A stretch of 64,000 nt of DNA, taken from positions 248,001 through 312,000 of the forward strand of contig NZ_JAJEWI010000010.1 of NCBI RefSeq assembly GCF_020687785.1. Direction: 5' to 3'. The position numbers and the translations under genes were made by a program. Shown here piece by piece: positions 5,312 through 15,586 of this stretch (position 1 is its first letter; every line of letters starts with the position of its first letter). The DNA is from Sphingopyxis yananensis (GTDB taxonomy: Bacteria; Pseudomonadota; Alphaproteobacteria; Sphingomonadales; Sphingomonadaceae). Below the pieces are notes generated by a model, which worked only from the letters and a program-made list of their open reading frames with translations, had not been told where the DNA came from and searched no databases.

Positions 5312-6451
5312 TTAAGCCATATGGGGTTGCTGCGCGAACCATGGCACCATGCGGGCGATGGCCTCGTTGATCAGGGGGGTGGATACCGCAAAGCTGAAAC
5401 GTATGAAGTGATGCCCGTCGACCGGATCGAAATCCAAACCCGGCGCAGTTGCCACGCCCGTTTCGCGCAATAGCGTTTCACAAAAGCTCAGGCTGTCCTG
5501 CGACAAGTGGCTGATATCGGCATAGATATAAAAAGCGCCATCCGGCGGGGCGATGGTTTTCAAGCCCAATTGCGGCATGGCGGCCAGCAACAAGCCGCGG
5601 TTGGTGTGATAATTATCAACATGGCCGTCCAGTTCGTCGCTGCATTCAAATGCAATCAGTCCGGCATGTTGACTGAGGACTGGCGGGGTTAGGAACAGGT
5701 TGCTCATTCGGGCGTGGGCGGCATCTATATGCTGAAGCGGAGCGATCAGCCACCCCAAGCGCCAGCCAGCCATGCTGAAATATTTGGAAAAGCTGTTGAT
5801 GACCAAGGCGTCGGGCGCAAATTCCAAAACGCTGTGCGTTGCGGCGCCATAGCTGAGGCCGTGGTAGATTTCGTCCGATATGATATGAATGCCGTGCTGG
5901 GTGCAATAGGCGACGATTTTGGCCAATTCCTCGCGCTCGATGATCGTCCCAGTGGGATTGGCGGGGCTCGCGATGATGATCGCATCGGGCGCAGGCTGAA
6001 TGGCGGCGACCGCATCGGCGGTTAATTGATAGCGAACCTCTGGCCCGCAACCGATTTCCACGGCTTCCATATGCAGCGCCTTCACCGTGTTGCGATAGGC
6101 GACATAGCCAGGCCGCGCAAAAGCCACGCGTGCGCCAACGGGCAAAATGCTGTTCAAGGCCAAGACAAGGGCTGGCGATGCTCCGCAGGTCAGGATCACT
6201 TGTTCCGCTGTGATGCTGACGCCATAGCGCTCTTGGTAATGGCGCGCGATGCGTGCTTTCAGCGGCGAACTCTCCCAATATCCCATGGGGTCATTGTCCA
6301 AAATTTGATGCGCGGCGGCGATGGCTGCTTGGGGTGCGCCAGTGGACGGTTGTCCAAATTCCATATGAATAATGCTTTGGCCCTGCGCTTTAAGCTCTTG
6401 GGCAAGGCGGCTGAGGCTGATGGCGTGGAAGGGGGCGACCTGTGCAACCAT
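5312..6451 (-). CDS. PLP-dependent aminotransferase, class I/II
   Basis: A 379-residue fold-type I aminotransferase. The PLP lysine is Lys223 in NSFSKYFSMAGWRLGW. Upstream are the Asn/Pro motif SPANPTGT and the Asp/Tyr pair ISDEIYHGL; the C-terminus contains the carboxylate-binding Arg in HFIRFSFA. These are the marks of aspartate/alanine-type aminotransferases of the AspC/AlaA/PatA group. The substrate cannot be assigned; annotation as a generic class I/II aminotransferase is safest. The gene is monocistronic in this view, convergent with the 2H phosphoesterase gene. Its start at 6451 (MVAQVAPFHAISLSRLA) gives the usual N-terminal helix. Confidence 0.92.
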   Translation of the reverse strand: MVAQVAPFHAISLSRLAQELKAQGQSIIHMEFGQPSTGAPQAAIAAAHQILDNDPMGYWESSPLKARIARHYQERYGVSITAEQVILTCGASPALVLALNSILPVGARVAFARPGYVAYRNTVKALHMEAVEIGCGPEVRYQLTADAVAAIQPAPDAIIIASPANPTGTIIEREELAKIVAYCTQHGIHIISDEIYHGLSYGAATHSVLEFAPDALVINSFSKYFSMAGWRLGWLIAPLQHIDAAHARMSNLFLTPPVLSQHAGLIAFECSDELDGHVDNYHTNRGLLLAAMPQLGLKTIAPPDGAFYIYADISHLSQDSLSFCETLLRETGVATAPGLDFDPVDGHHFIRFSFAVSTPLINEAIARMVPWFAQQPHMA

Positions 6452-6663: not shown

Positions 6664-6740
6664 GGCGGAGTAGCTCAGTTGGTTAGAGCAGCGGAATCAT
6701 AATCCGCGTGTCGGGGGTTCGAGTCCCTCCTCCGCTACCA
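6664..6740 (+). tRNA. tRNA-Met (anticodon CAT), elongator type
   Basis: The 77-nt sequence folds as a complete cloverleaf. The acceptor arm is ggcggag/ctccgct with a G-U at 1:72, the D arm gctc...gagc, and the anticodon stem gcgga/tccgc closes a loop with CAT. The T arm carries ggttcgagtcc and the CCA end is encoded. The absence of a 1:72 C-A mismatch and of three G-C pairs below the anticodon argues against initiator tRNA. A CAT anticodon could also be tRNA-Ile2 modified to lysidine, but the overall sequence resembles alphaproteobacterial elongator tRNA-Met. A decayed integrase lies 14 bp downstream, suggesting this tRNA end once served as an attachment site. Confidence 0.95.
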
Positions 6741-6754
6741 TGGTTTTCAATGGC

Positions 6755-7094
6755 TTAGCGTTGTTTTGCAAAGTGGTAATAATCCATTTTTACAGTTGTT
6801 TTTACACTTAGACGTTCCGACGGTGCCGAAATAACGGTCAACTCGTCGACATGCCTCCGCCGGATTTCACGAACCGTTTCGAGCGACTGGCCAACCCGGC
6901 AATTTTCTCATCGCACACTTCACGCCAAGATGCGTCACGCATGTTCCGCGAAGGACATGCAGATGGACACTGATGCGAGCTTTGTTCTTGGCTTTTTGAC
7001 ACGCGCTGCCAAGGCCGCTCGCCGTCCATGGCGAGCCTAAATTGTTCTTCAGCGCTGGCCCTGTTGGAGGCCCAAATTCGGAAAGCAGTTCCCG
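6755..7094 (-). pseudogene. Decayed tyrosine recombinase (phage/island integrase), C-terminal remnant
   Basis: No single frame is coding, but three minus-strand frames join into the C-terminal half of a tyrosine recombinase. Frame one (about 7094-6920) reads LLSEF...LKNNLGSPWTASGLGSACQKAKNKARI, then HVLRGTCVTHLG, matching the catalytic box usually written DLRGTAVT. Frame two continues with REVCDEKIAGL, like the EIA.ITG element. Frame three gives VGQSLETVREI-RRRHVDEL, like the tail GHSLKDVEAIL..HY, and stops at 6755-6757. The expected catalytic His/Tyr at the end appear lost. At least two frameshifts and a missing N-terminal half show it is dead. Its position and orientation beside a tRNA 3' end are typical for integrases of integrated elements. 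Confidence 0.7.
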
Positions 7095-7142
7095 TCATTT
7101 GTTGAAATGGAGATCGCGGCGCGGTGAGCGGAGTTGCGGTGA

Positions 7143-14867: not shown

Positions 14868-15586
14868 CTCTGCTGCGCCGCTTGGGACTTCCCCTTGCGG
14901 CGCTGCTCCTTGCCTTTGGCCTGATTGGACTGGGGGTGTGGCAGGTTCAGCGGTTGGCGTGGAAACAACATCTCATCGCCGCCGTTGACAGCCGAAAAGA
15001 TGCAGCGCCCATAAGCGCCGCCGGCCCTGATCAATGGGCTACCCTTTCCCCCGAACAAGATGTTTATCGCCGTGTGACCGCCACCGGTGTCTTTCGGCAC
15101 GACCAAAGTGTGCTGGTTCAAGCCGTCACCGAAAGGGGCGGCGGATTTTGGGTGATGACCCCGCTGGATATTGGCCGCTATCGGATTTTCATCAATCGTG
15201 GCTTTGTGCCGCCGGAAAAAGCCAAGCCTGCGTCGCGGGCGGAAGGCGACGTGACAGATACTGTCACCGTGACAGGCCTGATGCGCTTTAGCGAACCCAA
15301 GGGTGGTTTCTTGCGCGACAATGACCCCGCAGCAGACCGTTGGTTTTCGCGGGACATTGCGGCCATGGCCAAGGCCAAGGCTGTGACCCATGCCGCGCCT
15401 TATTTTATCGACGCCGATGCTACGCCCAATGCTGGCGGCTATCCGATTGGCGGCATGACGGTGGTGACATTCACCAACAATCATTTGGTATATGCGCTGA
15501 CATGGTTTGGGCTGGCGGGCATCGCTTTCTTCTTTGCGTGGATGTTATGGCGCTCTCCGCGCCGACAGGATAATGTCCATAAATGA
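14864..15586 (+). CDS. SURF1 family oxidase assembly protein
   Basis: A 240-residue protein with the SURF1 layout: one transmembrane helix at each end (about residues 9-27 and 210-230) enclosing a periplasmic domain. Family motifs are visible: GLGVWQVQRLAWK after helix 1, FINRGFVP in the middle and NNHLVYALTWFGLA before the last helix. SURF1 proteins help insert heme into heme-copper oxidases, so its place straight after cyoD implies a role in bo3 maturation. Notably no cyoE (heme O synthase) follows in the operon. Both ends overlap neighbours in ATGA form. Confidence 0.92.
   Translation: MTLLRRLGLPLAALLLAFGLIGLGVWQVQRLAWKQHLIAAVDSRKDAAPISAAGPDQWATLSPEQDVYRRVTATGVFRHDQSVLVQAVTERGGGFWVMTPLDIGRYRIFINRGFVPPEKAKPASRAEGDVTDTVTVTGLMRFSEPKGGFLRDNDPAADRWFSRDIAAMAKAKAVTHAAPYFIDADATPNAGGYPIGGMTVVTFTNNHLVYALTWFGLAGIAFFFAWMLWRSPRRQDNVHK

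Follow-up and report, generated by a model that had tools for sequence, protein, structure and literature searches.

A dead integrase gene lies directly downstream of a tRNA-Met gene in the 64,000-nucleotide stretch of DNA analysed here (the window), and this relic is very likely a scar left by an integrated element, most probably a temperate prophage, that has since been lost. The gene, at 6806-7138, is a pseudogene derived from the tyrosine recombinase/phage integrase (PF00589) family and not a working member of it, because its N-terminal part is missing, its reading frame changes three times and a His stands at the position of the catalytic Tyr. The tRNA-Met gene was very probably the attachment site, since the closest intact relatives of the integrase lie at the same tRNA and the relic joins their lineage in a phylogenetic tree. 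Integrase scars beside tRNA genes are common; the relic is an ordinary, well-supported case and documents one more lost element.

Structure of the integrase relic

An earlier, sequence-only reading of this locus had reported the C-terminal half of a tyrosine recombinase, broken over minus-strand frames by at least two frameshifts and ending 14 bp from the tRNA. A position check found all four peptides that it named on the minus strand downstream of tRNA-Met, and alignment confirmed the homology. A further stretch at 7138-7094 lies in the third frame, so that the relic consists of four segments with three frame changes. The features of the locus are as follows.

6664-6740, plus strand: tRNA-Met (CAT), very probably the attachment site; intact, CCA encoded (ARAGORN; Rfam tRNA model, 66.7 bits)
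6741-6805, no strand assigned: stretch from the tRNA to where the integrase homology ends; probably derived from the element (likeness to genome G291, and motif); holds CAATGGCTTAG at 6748-6758
6806-6892, minus strand: relic segment 4, GQSLETVREIRRRHVDELTVISAPSERLS; His at the catalytic Tyr position
6892-6918, minus strand: relic segment 3, VCDEKIAGL; different frame; frameshift-aware alignment
6918-7094, minus strand: relic segment 2, RELLSEFG...LGVK, with the HxxR motif (HVLRGT); different frame; frameshift-aware alignment and tblastn
7094-7138, minus strand: relic segment 1, RNSAHRAAISISTND; third frame; frameshift-aware alignment only; upstream limit of the homology, at the stop codon (7143) of a TPR gene
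7034-6975, minus strand: SPWTASGLGSACQKAKNKAR, peptide named earlier, same frame as LRGTCVTHLG
6953-6924, minus strand: LRGTCVTHLG, peptide named earlier, same frame as SPWTASGLGSACQKAKNKAR
6912-6892, minus strand: DEKIAGL, peptide named earlier, second frame
6892-6863, minus strand: GQSLETVREI, peptide named earlier, third frame

The homology runs on the minus strand from 7138 to 6806 and covers about 113 of about 348 residues. The N-terminal loss therefore stands, but what is left is the C-terminal third of an integrase and not its C-terminal half. The distance of 14 bp is likewise correct for the stop codon of the open frame, whereas the homology itself ends at 6806, 65 bp from tRNA-Met. 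By plain tblastn, the homology starts at residue 250 of the integrase of G433, a genome of another genus of the same family, which corresponds to position 7094 of the window. The relic retains HxxR, while the N-terminal part with the first catalytic Arg is absent at the locus.

A genome-wide search with the full-length G433 integrase did not find the missing N-terminal part elsewhere; besides the relic, it turned up only an intact paralogue on contig C3 and a weak match on contig C11. A split of the integrase gene by an inversion was rejected on this ground. The paralogue (L079, 10003-11254) lies tail to tail with a tRNA-Thr (TGT) gene and is 35% identical to the G433 form.

Homology and controls against chance

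Frameshift-aware alignment to a tyrosine recombinase had been proposed as a check. The minus strand of 6741-7142 aligned with the intact G433 integrase at a score of 181, compared with 40 for the plus strand. Extending the alignment past 7143 into the TPR gene gained only 2 score units (183), and this extension was judged spurious. At 51 of 107 aligned positions (48%) the relic is identical to the G433 integrase, its nearest intact form. The joined read-through of the relic also matched the intact integrase of genome G075, a member of the same genus as the window, with 45% identity over residues 2-79 (E = 1.2e-12). Matches to this read-through were present in 7 of 80 genomes of the genus (E threshold 0.001) and in 12 of 396 genomes of the order (E threshold 1e-6), the window's own genome being included in both counts.

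Two other explanations were weighed against this homology. Short peptides chosen by eye across three frames can mislead, and the profile searches would seem to favour a chance resemblance: four forms of the relic (pieces alone and joined) matched no Pfam family, and PHROGs returned no integrase match for the pieces or the joined form, only one weak match of unknown function (E = 0.063). However, none of 500 dinucleotide shuffles came near the relic (maximum 58, mean 36.3, standard deviation 5.4), nor did any of 312 other 402-base stretches of the window on both strands (maximum 60). Plain tblastn, which does not join frames, recovered two pieces in collinear order, one covering residues 250-317 and the other residues 318-348 of the 348-residue query, and listed each with E = 6e-15. 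Chance resemblance is refuted by these controls, and its probability is practically nil. Nor is the relic an intact integrase that sequencing or assembly errors make look broken, a reading that we regard as exceedingly improbable. Frameshifts alone can arise from such errors, but the N-terminal two thirds are absent with an intact TPR gene in their place, the catalytic Tyr position holds a His, and the relic sits on a long branch at just 48% identity to its nearest intact form.

Intact relatives at the same tRNA and links to phages

Comparison of the same tRNA locus in related genomes, also proposed earlier, revealed intact integrases tail to tail with tRNA-Met in three genomes. Those of G433 (L091) and G391 (L093), both of the other genus, are long-frame genes that lie 68 bp from the tRNA end; in Novosphingobium lindaniclasticum LE124 (L240), the integrase match ends 93 bp from tRNA-Met. 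The relic, tail to tail at 65 bp, thus has the usual place and direction that had been claimed for it. In G075 (L069), a stretch of 43.7 kb extends from tRNA-Met (C1:928649) to a 48-bp copy of the tRNA 3' part (C1:972368); a related integrase occupies the far end, indicating that the geometry varies within the lineage. Pfam matched 4 of 10 scanned proteins of the stretch (terminase, tail collar, endosialidase chaperone and integrase), which identifies it as a prophage; its integrase passes the PF00589 cut-off with 36.3 bits against 27.1.

Copies of the tRNA-Met 3' part, 46-48 bp long, mark element ends in relatives. Second copies occur in G433, G391, G280 and G075, and the use of the same tRNA as an attachment site by relatives supports the earlier proposal that tRNA-Met had this role in the window. 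The 11 bases CAATGGCTTAG at 6748-6758 are an att-flanking motif of part of the relic's integrase lineage, and G291 has the tRNA plus about 17 bp beyond it in common with the window. A motif picked after seeing the data, CAANNNCTTAG, was present within 60 bp of tRNA-Met in the window, in 3 of 5 tail-to-tail loci, in none of 32 plus-strand loci and in 5 of 43 loci with neither arrangement, in a locus set that contains some genomes twice.

The G433 integrase matched 20 phage records at 23-37% identity, all 20 of which name an integrase, as well as two IMG/VR contigs at 64% and 53%. On the closer viral contig (L249), the exact last 40 bases of tRNA-Met lie 0.5 kb beyond the integrase. No tRNA-Met copy was found on the other (L250), which ends right after the integrase gene, or in the stretches of three phage records.

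In a phylogenetic tree of 24 sequences, the relic joined, with moderate support (92/88), the lineage that comprises the tRNA-Met forms and both viral contigs. This lineage stood beside forms at tRNA-Pro and separate from forms at tRNA-Gly. The relic's branch is long (1.16) and belongs to no starred branch, so its exact position is unsure. The row labelled G397_noMet had been placed in the Met group by its name although its tRNA-Met is another one about 0.9 kb away; the count of group changes for Met was therefore set aside, and the tree was used for topology only. At six loci (L071, L072, L078, L098, L100 and L101), integrases of the wider family run directly into a complete tRNA-Gly gene at its 5' end, in place of the usual 3' side, and the fetched stretches contained no other copy of that tRNA-Gly. 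Such elements may bring a whole tRNA with them or make use of its 5' edge.

Recurrent use of the tRNA-Met site

A scan by alignment to mltG gave at least 80 loci. Among the 80 listed, tRNA-Met lay downstream in the same direction in 44 and on the other strand in three more; 43 of the 44 were kept, one with 2 bp beyond the tRNA being left out. A plus-strand integrase match lay directly downstream of tRNA-Met in 22 of these 43 listed loci, at least four of the matches being weak (about 25% identical) and one coming from 62 bp only. We take these plus-strand integrases to be P4-like. Two loci had a tail-to-tail integrase (L240, and L205, which is closer to the C3 paralogue), and the remaining 19 had no integrase in either direction by the tblastn test. 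In a frameshift-aware scan of the 41 listed loci with at least 400 bp, two intact integrases reached 1573 and 992, and none of the remaining 39 loci exceeded 73 on the minus strand; the window scored 183. A minus-strand ORF beside tRNA-Met in L026 and L027 was considered as a relative and rejected, as it had no match to the integrase family.

Second copies of only the tRNA-Met 3' part were also seen, among the matches listed, in G010, G024 and G035. In G010 (L073, 13951-15713), just 1.76 kb lie between tRNA-Met and the second copy; a frameshift-aware scan of this stretch gave no integrase signal, and it is another small scar at the same site. In G024 (C1, 3252033-3531158; L076 and L077), a 46-bp copy and the full tRNA-Met are 279 kb apart on the same strand, a spacing that would fit one island of very large size, a stack of elements or a rearrangement.

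Our results show that tRNA-Met has repeatedly served for integration in Sphingopyxis and its relatives, and that at least two lineages of integrases use it, in opposite orientations. This should be useful for island annotation in sphingomonads and leaves the general picture unchanged. The part of PMC4741004 consulted does not name the tRNA-Met site, which is too thin a base for calling the site unpublished.

Genes neighbouring the relic

The order acpP, fabF, mltG, alpha/beta hydrolase, 2'-5' RNA ligase-like gene, tRNA-Met on the left flank is retained in the 20 loci fetched from relatives: mltG and the ligase-like gene lie by tRNA-Met in 20 of 20, and fabF, acpP and the hydrolase each in 19 of 20. 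The window differs by one gene.

5312-6451: aminotransferase, between the 2'-5' RNA ligase-like gene and tRNA-Met

In the 20 relatives' loci, 60-96 bp separate the end of the ligase-like match from tRNA-Met, compared with 1380 bp in the window, and among the 21 loci compared only the window has an aminotransferase in between. Relatives of this gene are present in 36 of 80 genomes of the genus. It is a lineage-specific insertion 5' of tRNA-Met, out of place in the window; nothing ties it to the element.

On the right flank, no gene cluster common to the window and 29 stretches from relatives (26 tRNA flanks and three stretches beyond second copies, about 2-17 kb each) was found. Of the 80 genomes of the genus, the window's own included, 44 have relatives of the TPR gene and 50 have relatives of a sensor kinase (at 15583), in both cases at other places. 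Among the cases seen on a contig that also carries tRNA-Met, the nearest to it were a TPR relative at about 104 kb in G034 and a kinase relative at about 48 kb in G006. The C-terminal end of the TPR gene is conserved, with matches that reach residue 589 of 589 in most relatives. The best matches of the neighbouring genes in the genus are 66-72% identical. PHROGs matched 5 of 10 neighbouring proteins, in the categories "unknown function" or "other", and placed none of the ten in a phage structural category. A search of the window's genome with the G075 terminase, run without a positive control, gave no match. On contig C423 of G009 (L134), relatives of the TPR and aminotransferase genes directly adjoin each other in the order opposite to that of the window; because the G009 aminotransferase represents a more distant type (59%), the adjacency is perhaps a coincidence.

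The sequence-only reading had also suggested that neighbouring genes may be island leftovers, in which case part of an island would persist with the TPR gene, the aminotransferase and others as its cargo. Both the aminotransferase found next to tRNA-Met only in the window and the lack of a common cluster on the right flank could be read in this way. However, the left gene order is conserved, and the TPR and kinase genes are widespread in the genus at other places. The aminotransferase, itself present in many genomes of the genus, and the relic stand on opposite sides of the tRNA. Moreover, no att copy encloses the flanking genes, and there is no structural phage family among the ten neighbours. 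The suggestion is thus unsupported, and persisting cargo is very unlikely.

Origin of the scar

A search of the 64 kb with the last 25 bases of tRNA-Met, allowing up to three mismatches, recovered only the tRNA itself, and a genome-wide search for a near-identical copy of the tRNA-Met 3' part found none. Without a second copy at a far end, the locus is a scar and not a present element. Because this copy is absent and no other element gene was recognised nearby, we infer integration in this lineage from the relic alone.

The scar may have arisen as follows. An element with a tRNA-Met-specific tyrosine recombinase would have recombined its attP with the last ~46-48 bp of tRNA-Met, which would have left the tRNA gene restored and the integrase gene directly after it in tail-to-tail position. 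A later deletion or rearrangement would then have taken out the element and the distal att copy; the same event would have removed the N-terminal two thirds of the integrase and joined the remainder to the TPR stop codon. The 0.4 kb left over would subsequently have decayed through frameshifts and substitutions.

The relic could be real and the lost element a genomic island or an integrative conjugative element, which we consider unlikely. Tyrosine recombinases are used by islands and phages alike, and many integrases at tRNA-Met (22 of the 43 loci listed) belong to the other, plus-strand lineage, both of which leave room for an island. The relic itself, however, groups with the lineage of the G075 prophage integrase and the two IMG/VR contigs, and the wider integrase family is present in the 20 phage records. 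In addition, a plasmid collection gave no match to the protein read-through of the relic, the sole protein query, and its DNA gave one 44-base match (E = 0.4) that was disregarded. A temperate prophage is therefore the element that the relic most probably records.

Comparison with known integrases

The integrases of G433, G391, N. lindaniclasticum and G075 have collinear C-terminal homology to the relic and the same tRNA. All but that of G075 also lie like the relic, tail to tail with tRNA-Met at a distance of about 65-93 bp. In contrast to the long open frames of these intact genes, the relic has kept neither the N-terminal two thirds nor the catalytic Tyr, and its frame changes three times. 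The plus-strand integrases at the same tRNA-Met in Sphingopyxis have the attachment tRNA in common with it but belong to another lineage and read away from the tRNA.

In G291 (L094) and G280 (L095), shortened integrases, likewise without the N-terminal part, lie beside tRNA-Met sequence. The G280 gene adjoins a partial tRNA-Met copy (45 bp, 96%), 50 kb from the full tRNA-Met. The break point is 391 bp from tRNA-Met in G291 and about 398 bp in the window; that of G280 lies further upstream. G291 and G391 share 93.6% DNA identity up to the G291 break, past which tblastn extends the G291 match. The sequence after this break looks, by its motif, like the start of an IS transposase, and no such sequence was seen at the break in the window, where the TPR gene begins. 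We take the similar break points of G291 and the window as chance. That the similar N-terminal losses are no coincidence, and reflect a preferred break point or selection for a C-terminal stub with att-proximal DNA, is highly improbable; if true, a retained stub might, for example, block re-integration beside tRNA-Met. Unlike the relic, both shortened integrases keep their remaining C-terminal part in one open frame.
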